Assembly (NCBI RefSeq): GCF_900170035.1
Contig: NZ_LT828550.1
Coordinates: 55,782 to 107,338, forward strand
Direction: 5' to 3'
DNA: 51,557 nt
From: Desulfamplus magnetovallimortis
GTDB lineage: Bacteria > Desulfobacterota > Desulfobacteria > Desulfobacterales > Desulfobacteraceae
Made by a program: the position numbers and the translations under genes. Of the stretch, positions 803-47,519 are shown piece by piece. Positions within the stretch are counted from its first letter, which is position 1; each line of letters starts with the position of its first letter. Under the pieces are notes generated by a model, which made no database searches, was not told the origin of the DNA, and saw only the letters and a list, made by a program, of their open reading frames with translations.

Positions 803-890
803 AATTTCTTATTGGAAAGTCCATCTAAAGGCTTGTTTTTAAAGGACTTTCGTGCTTCGTTGTGGCAGATGTGTCTGCCATGGCAGTTAT
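803..890 (-). repeat. palindromic repeat family A, single copy
   Basis: Read on the minus strand, this unit has an inner inverted repeat (TGGCAGA, short loop, TCTGCCA), then ACAACGAAGC, then an outer pair (GAAAGTCC and GGACTTTC) enclosing a variable stretch. The same two-hairpin design recurs at 5790-5906, 27730-27963 and 37064-37224. It lies in the 544-bp gap between infC and rpmI and is probably co-transcribed with them. Confidence 0.8.
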
Positions 891-5789: not shown

Positions 5790-5906
5790 GTATAAAACAT
5801 ACATGGCGGTTCATCGCCACAATCGAAGTGATGAAAGCCCTTAATTGGTGGGGACTTTCATATAAATGCTAAGTTGTGGCAAATTGGTTTGCCATGGCCG
5901 TTATAT
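5790..5906 (+). repeat. palindromic repeat family A, two units in opposed orientation
   Basis: A plus-oriented unit (ACATACATGGCGG, a TCATCGCCAC palindrome, AATCGAAGTGATGAAAGCC, then GGGGACTTTCATATAA) runs to about 5866. The head half of an inverted unit follows (AAGTTGTGGCAAATTGG, TTTGCCATGGCCGTTATAT). The pair ends 25 bp before rimP, so it probably lies in the leader of the rimP-nusA transcript. Confidence 0.75.
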
Positions 5907-8042: not shown

Positions 8043-8124
8043 TTCAAGGTTTGATTGTCGGGTAGAAAATGCCTTGAACCTTTGAAAAGCCTTAAAAGTC
8101 ACCCGACAGTTTAAACTTGAAGAG
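8043..8124 (+). repeat. palindromic repeat family E, copy 1
   Basis: The arms TCAAGGTTTGATTGTCGGGT and ACCCGACAGTTTAAACTTGA are inverted and enclose about 40 bp. The same arms recur at 31551-31648 and 39243-39310, with a half copy near 29345. It lies in the nusA-infB gap, inside a normally continuous operon. Confidence 0.75.
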
Positions 8125-8179
8125 GCAATAGTGAGAATGAGATGATTTCTGAATCATAAAATTAAATGACAGTCAAACA

Positions 8180-13360: not shown

Positions 13361-13630
13361 GTGGTATTATTAGCTGAAAACAAAGAAGAGATGATTGAGC
13401 AATTCAAACAACACGCTACAGATACTGGTTCCCCGGAGGTGCAGGTTGCACTTTTGACCCACAGAATCAGTTATTTGACAGAGCACGTTAAAGTGCATAA
13501 AAAGGATCATCATTCAAGGCGCGGTCTTTTGATTCTTGTTGGAAGACGCCGTAGTCTTCTTGATTATCTCAAGAGAAAAGATATCAACAGATATCGTTCT
13601 CTGATTGAAAAACTTGGTCTTAGAAGATAG
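13361..13630 (+). CDS. rpsO: 30S ribosomal protein S15
   Basis: An 89-aa protein with the S15 signature: [40 protein letters not shown], ending [13 protein letters not shown]15 binds the central domain of 16S rRNA and nucleates platform assembly. It starts with GTG at 13361, 8 nt after the ribosome binding site AAGGAG. The rpsO-pnp order is conserved in most bacteria. S15 usually represses its own mRNA through a leader structure; none was verified in 13204-13360. The stop is followed at once by a 15-bp tandem repeat. Confidence 0.97.
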
Positions 13631-13650
13631 AAGAACGAGAATATTTCAAA

Positions 13651-13746
13651 CAAGAAGACTTCAAGCAAGAAGATTTTAAGCAAGAACATTTTAAGCAGGA
13701 AGATTTTAAGCAAGAAGATTTTAAGCAGGAAGATTTTAAGCAAGAA
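13651..13746 (+). repeat. 15-bp tandem repeat after rpsO, about 6.4 copies
   Basis: The unit is CAAGAAGATTTTAAG with few substitutions. In one forward frame it encodes Q-E-D-F-K repeats, but that frame has no start and is not the rpsO frame. The array starts 20 bp after the S15 stop and ends against a palindrome at 13747. It may be a decayed protein tail or a simple-sequence expansion in the rpsO-pnp spacer. Confidence 0.9.
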
Positions 13747-13773
13747 CGGGGACAGATTTAAAATCTGTCCCCG
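13747..13773 (+). repeat. 27-nt palindrome in the rpsO-pnp spacer
   Basis: CGGGGACAGATTT and its complement AAATCTGTCCCCG flank a central A. A diverged copy lies at 16344-16368, on the other side of pnp. There is no T run, so it is not a standard terminator. It could be a small dispersed palindromic repeat or an RNase III target in the rpsO-pnp mRNA. Confidence 0.8.
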
Positions 13774-14003
13774 AAAGTGCAAAACATCAAAACATCAAAA
13801 CATTAGCATTTTAGCATTTAATAACCTGACCTCTATGGGTGGGATTTTTTAACTGATTTTTTTTTACGGGCGGTATTTTCTGGTCATTGCTGATACCTGA
13901 ATAAGTTCGCATGTGCAGCATCAATGATCTCATTGATGTTGAATGTGCGCGTTTATTCGGTATTGAGAATGCCGAGGAAACCGCCTTTTTTACAGGAGAA
14001 TGT

Positions 14004-16368: not shown

Positions 16369-16420
16369 GTTATTGTTAAATCCTCAAAGTCGGCACCTAT
16401 GATCTTGTAAGAGTTGTCAA

Positions 16421-16566
16421 CACTGTCTGAATCAGGATTCCCAAGATTAACAAGATAAGGCAGGATTATCTATCCTGAGCATCCTATCCATCCTGGTTAT
16501 CCTGGTTATCCTGGTTCAGACAACTGCAATAACTTCTGAAAAAGCAATAAGATGTCGATTTTGAGT
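16421..16566 (+). repeat. dispersed repeat family C, copy 1
   Basis: The element starts CACTGTCTGAATCAGGATTC and includes AAGATAAGGCAGGATTATCT. It then has ATCCTGGTTATCCTGGTT in tandem, and ends TTCAGACAACTGCAAT... AAGCAATAAGATGTCGATTT. Related copies lie at 24989, 41335-41579 (two) and 47325. Its end supplies an ATG (16552) in frame with the downstream gene. Confidence 0.8.
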
Positions 16567-16593
16567 AAATCAAAAAGGGGAATAAAATTAGCG

Positions 16594-20875: not shown

Positions 20876-20954
20876 TTTCCACGGTAAACGGGCATGATTG
20901 ATTACGTATCAATCACCCCCAAATATAAAACTGATAGTCATTTTCACGGTAAAG
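20876..20954 (+). repeat. dispersed repeat family D, copy 1
   Basis: The unit reads TTTCCACGGTAAACGGGCATG, ATTGATTACGTATCAATCAC, CCCCAAATATAAAACTGATAG, TCATTTTCACGGTAAAG, with TGATTACGTATCA as inner palindrome. It recurs in opposite orientation at 47197-47261 and in part at 41675-41716. It ends 17 bp before the TamB start. Confidence 0.8.
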
Positions 20955-20971
20955 AATAACTTAGGAGTCAA

Positions 20972-24988: not shown

Positions 24989-25087
24989 GCTGTCTGAATC
25001 AAGATAACCAGGATGAAAAGGATGTTCAGGATAATTAATCCTGCCTTATCTTTGTTAATCCAGGGTATCCTGATTAAGACAATTTAT
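24989..25087 (-). repeat. dispersed repeat family C, copy 2 (inverse orientation)
   Basis: CTGTCTGAATCAAGATAACC, AGGATGAAAAGGATGTTCAGG, ATAATTAATCCTGCCTTATC, TTTGTTAATCCAGGG and ATCCTGATTAAGACAA match the complement of the copy at 16421. It fills the spacer between the TamB-like and Omp85 genes. Confidence 0.7.
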
Positions 25088-27696: not shown

Positions 27697-27729
27697 GTAT
27701 TGTTTGTTTTTTGTTAAATTGATATAACG

Positions 27730-27963
27730 TACATGGCTGATGACCGCCACAATCGAAGGGATGAAAGTCTTTATGAAAACAGCCATTTGCGGGGACTTTC
27801 ATATAACATACATGGCAGATTTCTGCCACAATCGAAGGGATGAAAGTCGTTTTAAAAACAGGCTGTTACCGAGACTTTCATATAAACATACATGGCAGAC
27901 ACATCTGCCACAACGAAGCATGAAAATCCTGAGAAGGCTTGAATCACGGGGACTTTCTTATAA
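27730..27963 (+). repeat. palindromic repeat family A, three head-to-tail units
   Basis: Three units of about 78 bp start at about 27730, 27807 and 27886. Each has TACATGGC, an inner inverted repeat (for example GGCAGATTTCTGCC), CACAA(T)CGAAG, GATGAAAGTC, a variable spacer, and GGGGACTTTC followed by ATATAA. The inner palindromes differ in sequence between units but keep pairing, which points to selection on structure or on a hairpin-recognising enzyme. Confidence 0.9.
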
Positions 27964-29190: not shown

Positions 29191-29440
29191 GAAGGAAGTG
29201 CATTCCGTCTATTATGGCCGATTGCATCGGAGAGATTACTGATGAAGATCAATAAATGTAAAATCTGATGTATGGGTTTTTCATGTTCAATGTGTGGTTG
29301 ACTTTTGGCTTTTTTTGTTAAATATAGACTACTGCTTTTGGAAGTTTAAACTATCGGGTGATTTTTTATGCTATTGAAATGTTCAAGGCGTTTTGTTCCT
29401 GACAATCAGATAGCGAAAGAACACTGCCAGAAAAACGTTT

Positions 29441-31134: not shown

Positions 31135-31543
31135 TAAAGAGGCTCATTTTGAAATTATAGACAAAAATTACAAGGCATTGATGCATTTGTCCTCCCCTGA
31201 CCCGTCAGAGCACATAGAGTGGTCAGTGATTATTATCTATTACATGGCATTGCACTATATTCAGGCCTATTTTGATGCTACATGCGAGGAGCACTATTCA
31301 AATCACATGTCACTTCAGAACAGAATGAGGGAGGTGCCTCAGTTGCGAAGTATTTATGGCAGATACAGACAACTTGAAGATGATTCAAGAAAAGCACGCT
31401 ATGATGGTGAAACATTCAATATATATACACTGAGAAACGAGACTTTAAAAAGCTTTCAGAAGATTCAGGATTTAGTTTTGAGCTGGCTGGAAAATACAGA
31501 CAGAAACTCCTATAATCTTTATAAGCTCTTTCCACCCAATTAA
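31127..31543 (+). CDS. small HEPN-like alpha-helical protein, third gene of the operon
   Basis: 138 aa, ATG at 31127, 5 nt after AAAGGAG. The pattern resembles HEPN-type proteins: an N-terminal helix with EHIEWSVIIIYYMALHYIQAYF, a SNHMSLQNRM turn, then YRQLEDDSRKARYDGETF and a C-terminal helix. The canonical HEPN RNase motif R-x4-6-H is not clearly present, so nuclease activity is doubtful. HEPN proteins are common in toxin-antitoxin and defence loci. This is inference from pattern and context. Confidence 0.75.
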   Translation: MPDKEAHFEIIDKNYKALMHLSSPDPSEHIEWSVIIIYYMALHYIQAYFDATCEEHYSNHMSLQNRMREVPQLRSIYGRYRQLEDDSRKARYDGETFNIYTLRNETLKSFQKIQDLVLSWLENTDRNSYNLYKLFPPN

Positions 31544-31550
31544 CTTAATG

Positions 31551-31648
31551 CTTCTTCAAGTTCAAACTGTCGGGTAATTTTTGAGGATGATTACTTGAAA
31601 TTGTGCATTTTTAAGTGCTGCTCTACCCGACAGATAGACCTTGAAGGA
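31551..31648 (+). repeat. palindromic repeat family E, copy 3
   Basis: CTTCTTCAAGTTCAAACTGT plus CGGGT, then a centre, then CTACCCGACAGATAGACCTTG plus AAGG. Inverted arms as at 8043 and 39243. It begins 8 bp after the HEPN-like gene and ends before the cytochrome ribosome binding site. Confidence 0.75.
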
Positions 31649-36340: not shown

Positions 36341-37735
36341 TCAGAATTTGATAAAGATTAAAAGGCAAAGGAATATTGCATAAATTCCGGCAACTGACAA
36401 GCGTGGATATGGTTTTATGGCATAATGGCTGATGCCAAGGCTTATTAAAATGGAAGCAGCGCATACAATTATAAACTTGAGAAAAATCTGACCGCTTTTC
36501 CAGTAACTTAGAAGCAACTGAAACAGTATCACAATTACAAAATGAACAAGATATATATAGTATGAATTTGATGCCATCATCTTGCCAAAACGTGAAGGGC
36601 GGTTCCAGTAACGAAGGGCGATGGATGTAAATGCCGCAATAAATGAGATGCAGAGAAATGACCGGGCAAGAACACAAAAAAAGAGTTTGCCAGGCGAGAA
36701 ATTTGTCATCACTTCCTTAAAAAGTCCAAGCATGATCAATGAGAGGAGAAATGAGGCTGCTGTCCAGAGGGCAGGATGTCCTGGTATTCTGATGGCATTT
36801 GGCCACCCTTTTTTAAAGGCATAAACGCCCATGCAGAAGCAGAGAATATATGTGACAATTTTTTGAGGCTGGAATTGGAATATATTTCCAATGGTGACCC
36901 AGGGATCTGGATTATATGGGGTTGCAAGGAGTATAACTCCTATAAAAGTCGCTATTGTTGAAAAAATTCCAATGGCAACAAGGAAGGTCAGTAATGATTT
37001 TGAAGAGGATTCTGTAGATGGTTGTTGCGGCATTTTTGTTATCTTTTCTTTTTTCTGGTTTGCATATAACGGCCATGGAAGAACCATTTGCCACAACGAA
37101 GCATGAAAGTCCTTTGGAGCCTTAAAAGACGGGGACTTTCTTATAAACGGCCATTGAAAAACCATTTGCCACAATGAAACATGAAAGTCCTTAAGAAGGT
37201 TAAAAAACGGGTATTTGTTTATAAATCCGAACATTATAAAAAAGAGAAGCAGCAGGGATATAAACCACAAATGAGATTGATGGGGCCGGTTGAATGAAAG
37301 TATGACACCTGTGTAAAATTCTCCGGCAATTTGCATATATTCCACCCAGTATGAATAAAAGCTTTTGTATATTAATACATTGCTGCTTCTGTAGTGATAA
37401 ATGAACTGAAAAAGAGGGGTTACAATGGGGAAGCATATCAAAACCGGAAGCCCCAGTCTTTTGAATTTTGCCTTGATAAACTGCTTGAATCCATTTTTAA
37501 GTATGGAGGGCGTGGCAAAGTAACCGGCAATAAAAAAAAGGATCGGCATGAGAAAAACATCAAGGATGATCATAAGTATGTCAAAGAAAACAGAAGTTGC
37601 ATCCTTGACGCACCACCAGGGAGCTGCCTGGCTGTAACTTACAGCCGCATGCAGAACAACTACCATGAGCACCATAAGATATCGCAGGTTATCAAGAAAA
37701 ACCACCCTGTTTTTGCTGTCTGTCTGAACAGTCAT
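36341..37735 (-). CDS. acyltransferase family 3 membrane protein carrying repeat-derived residues
   Basis: 464 aa with about ten transmembrane helices and the acyltransferase-3 start ([20 protein letters not shown], with the conserved H). Such proteins transfer acyl or succinyl groups to periplasmic glycans or lipids; the substrate is unknown. GGGAAAGG precedes the ATG. Residues about 170-224 are encoded by two family A repeats in frame (37064-37224). They yield two related peptides, [16 protein letters not shown] and [16 protein letters not shown], in the loop after the [12 protein letters not shown] helix. The stop lies 47 bp before the SDR start. Confidence 0.88.
37064..37224. repeat. palindromic repeat family A, two units inside a coding region
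   Basis: Two units (TATAACGGCCATGG..., CCATTTGCCACAACGAAGC, ATGAAAGTCC, spacer, GGGGACTTTCTTATAAACGG, then a second unit to about 37224) lie within the acyltransferase gene on its minus strand. They keep its frame open. Elsewhere the same element is intergenic. Confidence 0.9.
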
Positions 37736-38012: not shown

Positions 38013-39218
38013 ATGAAATACAATTTTGATGAAATAATTGATCGTGCAGGCAGTGGCTCTGAAAAGTATGACAATCGGGAGAAGCTTTTTGGCTCCAGCG
38101 ACATTATTCCCATGTGGGTTGCTGATATGGATTTCAGGGCGCCTGACTTTATTACAGATGCTCTTATAGAAAAAATAGAACAAGCCGTATATGGATACTC
38201 CATGAAGGGTAAAAACTTTTTTTCCTCTGTTGCCGGATGGATAAAAAGAGAGCATGGATGGGAGATCAAAAAGGAGTGGTTGAGTTTTAGCCCGGGCGTA
38301 GTCTCAGCACTTTCAATGTCCATCCTTGGAATGACAGAGCCAGGAGATGAGATTGTTATCCAGCCTCCGGTTTATCATCCATTCTATTTTGTGGTAGAAG
38401 ATAACAACAGAAAACTTGTGAAAAATCCTCTTGTTCTGAAAGAGGATCGCTATGGCATGGACATTGACCATCTGAAATCTGTTGTTTCTGAAAAGACGAA
38501 AATGCTTCTTCTTTCCAGTCCCCACAATCCAGGTGGTATGGTCTGGACAGAGGATGAACTCCGTGAGCTTGGAAATTTTTGTGTGGAGAGAAAGATCATA
38601 ATAATTTCCGATGAGATACACTGTGATCTGGTCTCAAAGGGGCATCACCACACTCCCATGGCAAGTATATCCGAAGAAATTGCCGATATAACAATAACCT
38701 GCATGGCTCCAAGCAAAACATTCAACATTGCAGGACTTGCGGCATCGGTGGTATTGATTTCCAATCCGGAACTTATGGCAAAATATAAAAAGACGCTCAA
38801 TGCCATTCATGTGGGGGGTGGCAATATCTTTGGTAATGCTGCAATGATAGCTGCCTATGAAAAAGGTGATTTATGGCTTGAAGAGGCTCTTGATTATATT
38901 GGAGCAAATATTGATTATGCCGAACATTTTTTCAGGGAGAAGGTCTCAGGAATCAAGATGATGCGTCCGGAAGCATCATATCTGTTGTGGCTTGATTGCC
39001 GTGAACTTGGCATGGAACAGGATGAGCTTTGCAGCTTTTTTATCAAAGGTGCAGGAATTGGTCTTAACGATGGCACCATGTTCGGGTTGGAGGGCAAAGG
39101 ATTCATGAGGATGAATGTTGCATGTCCAAGAGCTGTGCTTGTCCGTGCCCTTGATAATCTTGGAAATGCTTTGGAAAGACTCCGTGTTAATAAAGGTGTG
39201 GTTGTCAGGTGGAAATGA
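38013..39218 (+). CDS. PatB/MalY-type PLP-dependent aminotransferase (putative C-S lyase)
   Basis: About 401 aa from ATG 38013 (AAGGA 7 nt upstream); the frame also opens at ATG 37989. Fold type I PLP enzyme with IPMWVADMDF, PPVYHPFY, SPHNPGG, SDEIHCDL and the Schiff-base lysine in APSKTFNIAGL. The combination WVADMDF plus PPVYHPF marks the MalY/PatB (cystathionine beta-lyase) branch of family I aminotransferases. It probably cleaves C-S bonds of cysteine conjugates or cystathionine. It stands alone, facing away from the acyltransferase. Confidence 0.93.
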   Translation: MKYNFDEIIDRAGSGSEKYDNREKLFGSSDIIPMWVADMDFRAPDFITDALIEKIEQAVYGYSMKGKNFFSSVAGWIKREHGWEIKKEWLSFSPGVVSALSMSILGMTEPGDEIVIQPPVYHPFYFVVEDNNRKLVKNPLVLKEDRYGMDIDHLKSVVSEKTKMLLLSSPHNPGGMVWTEDELRELGNFCVERKIIIISDEIHCDLVSKGHHHTPMASISEEIADITITCMAPSKTFNIAGLAASVVLISNPELMAKYKKTLNAIHVGGGNIFGNAAMIAAYEKGDLWLEEALDYIGANIDYAEHFFREKVSGIKMMRPEASYLLWLDCRELGMEQDELCSFFIKGAGIGLNDGTMFGLEGKGFMRMNVACPRAVLVRALDNLGNALERLRVNKGVVVRWK

Positions 39219-39242
39219 TTTTAAATCTTTGAATTGCCTGAA

Positions 39243-39310
39243 AAATCATCCGACAGTTTAAACTTGAAGAAGCACTCACTGTTCGTTCAAAGTTTAACTG
39301 TCGGGTAGCC
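39243..39310 (+). repeat. palindromic repeat family E, copy 4
   Basis: AAATCATCCGACAGTTTAAAC, TTGAAGAAGC, a short centre, TTCAAAGTTTAACTGTCGGGT. Near-perfect inverted arms. It lies between the convergent aminotransferase and aldehyde dehydrogenase genes, where it could form a hairpin in both transcripts. Confidence 0.85.
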
Positions 39311-41299: not shown

Positions 41300-41334
41300 A
41301 AAATTGATACCTATGGCCTCTTGAGCCTTGTCAA

Positions 41335-41579
41335 CACTGTCTGAATCAGGATTCCCAAGATTAACGAGATAAGCCAGGATGATATTTCTTGAACATCTTT
41401 TTTATCCTGGTTATCCTGATTTAGACAAATTCCGCAACTGGAAAAAAGCAATAAGATGTCGATTTTGAGTTAATAGGATAAGGCAGGATTATCTATCCTG
41501 AACATCTTTTTTATCCTGGTTATCCTGATTCAGACAAATTCCGCAACTGCAAAAAAAGCAATAAGATGTCGATTTTGAG
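41335..41579 (+). repeat. dispersed repeat family C, two tandem copies
   Basis: The first copy (41335-41471) has CTGTCTGAATCAGGATTCC, AGATTAACGAGATAAGCC and AATAAGATGTCGATTTTGAG. The second (about 41472-41579) repeats TTTTTATCCTGGTTATCCTG, ATTCAGACAAATTCCGCAAC and the same AATAAGATGTCGATTTTGAG end. With families B and D they fill 40841-41682, an 842-bp gap with no gene. Confidence 0.85.
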
Positions 41580-41682
41580 AATATTACAGATTTTTTTTCA
41601 TAATAACTCCTGTGATGTGTTGACAGTAGGAGAAACCCCGGGTTTTGCAGCTTAAACAGATGACGTAACGAAACAGGCATGA

Positions 41683-47154: not shown

Positions 47155-47196
47155 AGTTTGATTTCAAATAGCACAATCATGCTCATCCCTTAATCC

Positions 47197-47261
47197 TTTA
47201 CCGTGAAAATGACTATCATTTTTATATTTGGGGGTGATTGATACGCAATCATGCCCGTTTA
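47197..47261 (-). repeat. dispersed repeat family D, copy 2 (inverse orientation)
   Basis: TTTACCGTGAAAATGACTATC, ATTTTTATATTTGGGGGTG, ATTGATACGCAATCATGCCC plus GTTTA match the complement of 20876-20954 closely. It begins 43 bp after the histidine kinase. Confidence 0.85.
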
Positions 47262-47324
47262 ATCAAGGTTCAAAATTTGGCTGAACCTTCATCTATACGA
47301 TTAAGAAAATTACATAATTACTCA

Positions 47325-47490
47325 AAATCGACATCTTATTGCTTTTTCCTGTTTGCTGAATTTGTCTAAATCAGGATAACCAGGATAAAAAAGATGTTCA
47401 GGATAGATAATCCTGCCTTATCTTTGTTAATCTTGATTCAGACAGCATTGACAAATTTCAAGAGGTTATATGTGTCGATTTTGAGTGATT
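47325..47490 (-). repeat. dispersed repeat family C, copy 4 (inverse orientation)
   Basis: ACTCAAAATCGACATCTTATT, GCTTTTTCCTGTTTGCTG, TTGTCTAAATCAGGATAACC, AGGATAGATAATCCTGCC and TTATCTTTGTTAATCTTGAT reproduce the complement of the copies at 16421 and 41335. It lies in the 475-bp gap before the formate dehydrogenase; no gene is visible there. Confidence 0.85.
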
Positions 47491-47519
47491 AATTATAACG
47501 ATCAGATTAATATTGATGG

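Follow-up and report, generated by a model that had tools for sequence, protein, structure and literature searches.

Two units of a dispersed repeat family lie in frame within an acyltransferase gene of Desulfamplus magnetovallimortis

How does a repeat that is intergenic elsewhere come to encode part of an acyltransferase? The question is raised by one locus in the window (the whole stretch of 51,557 nucleotides analysed here), where, according to an earlier note based on the letters alone, a mobile palindromic repeat termed family A has created protein sequence. The 464-aa gene product matches Acyl_transf_3 (PF01757, Pfam) with 89.7 bits, above the curated cut-off of 31, and its best fold match, HGSNAT, is weak (E 0.19). 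Its nearest homologues are 49-51% identical over the whole protein. None of the nine same-genus genomes searched has a close homologue; the only homologue among them, in G004, is 30% identical. The contig scan for homologues used the gapped alignment A1 as query, and the homologue set comprised 21 loci in named genomes, 17 of which were tried and 15 aligned (L069 and L078, shorter than 250 aa, were left out; L071, L079, L080 and L081 were unused). The spacing between the conserved residues W157 and F288 is 131 residues in the acyltransferase versus 75-82 in these 15 homologues and 79 in the three nearest (Olavius Delta 3, Desulfobacterales HSG2 and SURF_7). The excess over the three nearest is 52 aa, or 156 bp, which is exactly 2 x 78. 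The insert starts with the third base of codon 171 and ends with base two of codon 223, and the codons without it read F-G-L-Y-A-N where HSG2 has F-A-L-Y-A-N. In a second alignment, made from another search, the peptide is missing in 8/8 homologues. Judged by these alignments, two family A units are inserted in frame in the acyltransferase gene (Table 1), as the note had claimed, and both 10-residue peptides that it named are present in the translation. Its limits, 37064-37224 and residues 170-224 (about 54 aa), give the right place for an insert that the homologues make slightly shorter. The note had tied a repeat origin to the absence of these residues from relatives without family A, and homologue genomes without family A do lack the stretch: family A was not found in the homologue-bearing genomes G016, G019 and G037, with the own genome as positive control, and was found in 0/6 genomes reached via homologue loci, the three nearest included.

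Table 1. Coordinates of the acyltransferase gene, its insert, other family A copies and conserved proteins with in-frame family B (positions refer to the window unless a locus is named)
Feature	Position	Strand	Basis or remark
Intergenic family A unit	810..888	+	profile hit; no 100-aa ORF there
Two overlapping, opposed, diverged intergenic family A units	5797..5902	.	profile hits
Intergenic array of three family A units	27726..27962	-	profile hits
Acyltransferase gene, PF01757, 464 aa	36341..37735	-	ORF and translation
In-frame insertion of two family A units, +52 residues	37068..37223	-	missing in all 15 aligned homologues
Upstream unit (first in coding order), more diverged	37146..37223	-	best copy outside the array 79.5% in the scanned 2.41 Mb; hairpins lost
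Downstream unit, nearer other copies	37068..37145	-	97.4% to G000:C8:165888-165971 (L005); first hairpin intact
TsaD with in-frame family B	L088:9189-10328	+	own genome, NCBIfam equivalog
CbiD with in-frame family B	L278:1508-3064	-	own genome, NCBIfam equivalog
TruA with in-frame family B	L288:1520-2389	-	same-genus G008, NCBIfam equivalog
HypF with in-frame family B	L283:866-3637	+	same-genus G008, NCBIfam equivalog
RsmH with in-frame family B, at C-terminal end	L286:1816-2871	-	same-genus G008, NCBIfam equivalog

The insert belongs to an abundant repeat family. The two units of the insert stand in tandem, 78 bp each, head-to-tail in exact 78-bp register and in gene-sense orientation, and are identical at 64/78 bases (82%). 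A 161-bp query has at least 44 matches in the own genome, more than chance would give (best outside the window E 2.9e-42; 40 of 298 first-look candidates scored), and no match in plasmids and phages. A profile search of 2.41 Mb of the own genome (C1, C2 and C4 whole, C5 1-219000 and the window, with 6,700 masked bases) found 236 units in 155 arrays at E <= 1e-5, from which about 650 units would be expected genome-wide by proportion. The other copies in the window lie between ORFs, as the note had stated. Across 58 genomes, with at most 15 candidates scored in each, matches occur in six, the own genome counted among them: they are clear in the same-genus G001 and weak in G002 and G008, and amount to one copy in G010 and 21 bases in G024. 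Near-full units are mostly 77-81 bp long. Lengths of 78 or 81 bp prevail in type 1, where 30/49 near-full units are divisible by three and 31/49 are open in the acyltransferase frame; type 2 units are mostly 79-80 bp, with 6/84 near-full units divisible by three. Two intergenic copies fold into two internal hairpins, GAAAGTCC...GGACTTTC and TGGCAGA...TCTGCCA-like, and do so better than shuffled sequences (z -2.5 and -4.5); the element ends are TATA and CGTT. The description of the insert as palindromic holds only in part: the downstream unit retains its 8-bp first hairpin, the upstream unit has lost its hairpins and folds no better than shuffles, and neither does the whole 161 nt (z -0.57).

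The outer flanks of family A are nearly fixed, with TT before (96-99%) and A-T-A/T after (76 and 50 arrays, first 1.24 Mb); TT stands on either side, possibly as a duplication or as part of the element itself. One copy, G000:C1:1002193-1002273, is nested within another copy and thus provides a natural empty site, which reads TT^ATA with a duplication not beyond TT (rows read by eye). The flanks thus point to TT^ATA as the insertion site, with no clear duplication of the target, and the acyltransferase insert conforms to this rule. As for the claim of a mobile palindrome creating protein sequence, the insertion is supported by homologues, and mobility is suggested by dispersed near-identical copies, a conserved site and the one nested insertion. 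Abutting units are of different subtypes in 10/45 pairs, each with close copies far away, which implies that arrays grow at least partly by new insertions. Separate searches with the element halves for an autonomous partner yielded seven candidate pairings, all weak and unconvincing. Entry as a preformed dimer was rejected because full-length matches of the 161 bp elsewhere reach at most 84%, with no dimer source among the 40 of 298 candidates scored. Serial insertion at a regenerated right end, which would make downstream units younger, is not supported, with 16 pairs for it, 23 against and 6 ties (n=45). Four Y1 transposase matches occur in the genome, and no family A unit lies in those four loci (within 1.5 kb).

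Family A is probably a non-autonomous mobile element of small size, mostly 78-81 bp, that carries two internal hairpins and inserts at TT^ATA, duplicating no more than TT of the target. Loop codons of the acyltransferase gene would have received two units, most likely in two events. Each of these units, 78 bp or 26 codons long, is stop-free in that frame and orientation, so that the gene stayed open and its predicted product gained 52 residues; the open 464-codon ORF would permit reading through, as the note had argued. Most in-gene insertions would be lost or avoided, with that in the acyltransferase tolerated and drifting neutrally while its frame stays open. With its hairpins, its fixed site and its ends free of terminal repeats, family A recalls single-strand IS200/IS605-type transposition, and a transposase of that kind may act on it in trans. 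As an account of the acyltransferase loop this is, taken whole, highly probable. We count as established the in-frame insertion of 156 bp that homologues lack, the repeat family to which it belongs, the preferred target site and the second protein described below; we infer that the units transposed in two separate events, and that the loop is translated and neutral in the cell.

The head-to-tail arrangement of the two units in exact 78-bp register is what would be expected if a single unit had inserted and then been duplicated in tandem within the gene, by slippage or unequal crossing over, before the copies diverged. We consider this unlikely, since the units are 82% identical to each other, yet a copy on another contig matches the downstream one at 97.4%, and since abutting pairs elsewhere include different subtypes in 10 of 45 cases; gene conversion by another copy could mimic this evidence. 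The insert appears instead to have arisen in two events, with the upstream unit first. The shared sequence could also be read in the opposite direction, with the peptide as an old acyltransferase loop and the genomic repeats as copies that escaped from this gene. Nothing beyond the shared sequence was found in favour of such an origin, which is hardly credible when the peptide is missing in 15/15 homologues, the upstream unit is an outlier that shares no more than 79.5% with any copy in the scanned 2.41 Mb whereas identities of 95-100% are frequent among intergenic copies, and a family A unit also lies inside an unrelated protein of the CPBP/Rce1-like group.

What the insertion did to the protein can be approached from the gene and from the inserted residues. 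Just one copy of the acyltransferase gene is known in the genus, as might be expected if it were a dying pseudogene that is still open by chance. This is very improbable for a gene with 464 uninterrupted codons that retains the 31 invariant columns found across all 16 aligned rows (itself and 15 homologues), although it does so by definition of the columns, and whose AlphaFold2 model has a confident core. In that model (16 sequences; mean pLDDT 78.6), values fall below 50 at 179-182, 191-211 and 213-237, with confident helices on either side, which agrees with the predicted loop between helices of the earlier note. The inserted stretch is probably a flexible, disordered, non-conserved loop. 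Recruitment of this loop for a new enzyme property, kept by selection, could be argued from the frame of the upstream unit, still open after about 16 substitutions, and from the recurrence of similar loops in a second membrane protein (CPBP/Rce1-like). Against this, the frame of the upstream unit survives in 45% of random simulations, and the numbers of changed residues match random substitution (11 vs 10.8 expected; 5 vs 5.8). Selection for a new property has very little probability, and nothing points to it; the inserted peptide seems to have changed as if neutral, with no selection evident beyond the open frame.

Tolerated insertions of family A are rare. Only 3/155 arrays fall within ORFs that extend 50 residues or more beyond them on either side, while 5,423 of 7,877 TTATA sites (69%) fall in ORFs of at least 200 aa, an ORF set that is a crude stand-in for genes; this suggests that in-gene hits are purged or avoided. 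A laxer criterion of 25 residues on either side gives 6/155 arrays, three of them in short or doubtful frames, and none of the 43 arrays in the 37 first-search loci, which partly overlap places on the scanned contigs, is in an ORF with 30 residues on either side. One of the three in-ORF arrays is a reverse-orientation copy in a YhdP/AsmA-like ORF (C1:735295-739608), a region too variable in four same-genus homologues to prove insertion and similarly long in one of them, L228. Another reverse copy, in a ParA-like ORF (C1:947315-948805; E <= 1e-4), falls below the 1e-5 cut and is uncounted, and its tail is masked.

The same family A peptide does occur elsewhere in the genome, where the note had suggested looking for it. 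A CPBP/Rce1-like protein (C1:5183-6229; L082:5183-6229, minus strand; PF02517) carries it in the same frame and orientation. The element is missing at this site in 18/18 covering homologues, two of which have other loop residues (19 homologues were aligned; L221 begins past the site). In the same loop, a unit of a different repeat, family B (SKRSWPDAIPATPEHENRVCFHGKK), follows almost directly after the family A unit, and the first 29 codons of this gene match yet another repeat (C2:35145, C12:155809).

In the scanned 2.41 Mb, family B has 202 arrays with 282 units altogether. Nine arrays have 50 or more residues of an ORF on either side, eight of them in ORF sense, and the ninth sits in a doubtful 163-aa frame. 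The full SWP-TPDHEN-FHGK pattern is present in five of the eight sense arrays and part of it in the other three (by eye). A genus search placed family B in open frames of at least 290 residues for 5/23 own matches and 9/21 matches in G008, each of which was inspected, and 5/10 host proteins pass an NCBIfam equivalog cut-off (Table 1). The TsaD loop is long in most same-genus relatives even without a clear repeat, which suggests that some sites are permissive for other reasons. TsaD proteins of the genus (L297-L305) have two loops of highly variable length, serine- and asparagine-rich in several genomes, and relatives outside the genus have short turns at those two positions. The genus may host at least two dispersed hairpin-like families that are repeatedly read in frame inside conserved, partly essential proteins, as a large-genome counterpart of Rickettsia, with some subtypes (family A type 1 of 78 or 81 bp; family B SWPD-TPDHEN-FHGK) shaped to be frame-keeping and stop-free, as selfish DNA adapted to translation. 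We regard this wider reading as possible, if doubtful.

Palindromes within protein genes have been described chiefly in Rickettsia and Wolbachia; REPs and MITEs provide further examples. RPE-1 to RPE-3 of Rickettsia and the Wolbachia palindromes are small hairpin repeats that are intergenic and in frame in conserved genes (PMC2229807, PMC10969869, PMC3767692), and a Rickettsia guanylate kinase that contains an RPE is reported to be translated and to be active, at an altered affinity (PMC2229807). Family A resembles them in being both intergenic and in frame in genes, with the stretch missing from homologues. RPEs are about 100-150 bp long with terminal inverted repeats (about 12 bp), whereas family A is 78-81 bp long, with two internal hairpins, TATA...CGTT ends and a TT^ATA site, and its in-gene share (3/155 arrays) is far lower; its host also has a 6.7-Mb genome and belongs to another phylum-level group than Rickettsia. 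Family A works like an RPE and is probably a different family, set apart by length and end structure, and it is not filed as an RPE for that reason. GTAG-/CGTC-tagged REPs with RAYT are hairpin repeats found at times in ORFs, singly or as dimers (PMC3733652), much like family A. The family A consensus, however, ends in neither GTAG nor CGTC, and no RAYT-type tyrosine transposase flanked by the repeat lies near family A (4 Y1 loci, 1.5 kb). MITEs such as ERIC and the 107-bp Correia element are described as non-autonomous, many-copied and with open frames fused to genes (PMC2229807). Family A is likewise small, non-autonomous and high in copy number (236 units in 2.41 Mb) but, compared with MITEs as described there, lacks terminal inverted repeats (its ends differ) and a clear target duplication. 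PARCELs are palindromic coding units of about 25 codons; they form tandem tracts of a 25-residue amphipathic repeat, in ORFs to which no function is assigned (PMC2996958). Family A is also a palindromic coding unit, of 26 codons, but unlike PARCELs it occurs as one or two units in known enzyme families (PF01757, PF02517).

A literature search found no earlier report for this bacterial group, most subscription papers being outside its reach. Family A is a well supported further case of in-frame palindromes, a phenomenon itself established in Rickettsia; of greater interest is that in-frame repeats extend over two families and several conserved genes. With hundreds of copies, frame-keeping and non-keeping subtypes, and relatives with other insertions, the rate of gene hits could be measured, and the same system would show which of them persist and whether the elements become adapted to being translated. 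Alignments and structure models of proteins from this group should allow for loops that may be mobile DNA of recent origin.

The window holds other repeats as well. Intergenic family B-like units lie at 20884-20955 and 47195-47262. A dispersed repeat of CCAGGATAACC-like units in both orientations occurs at 16386-16570, 24991-25060, 41300-41584 and 47315-47500, and another, around CCCGACAGTTTAAAC, at 8046-8127, 29327-29360, 31543-31586 and 39193-39307. A tandem array of 15-bp units (13624-13762) stands ahead of the ORF at 13911.
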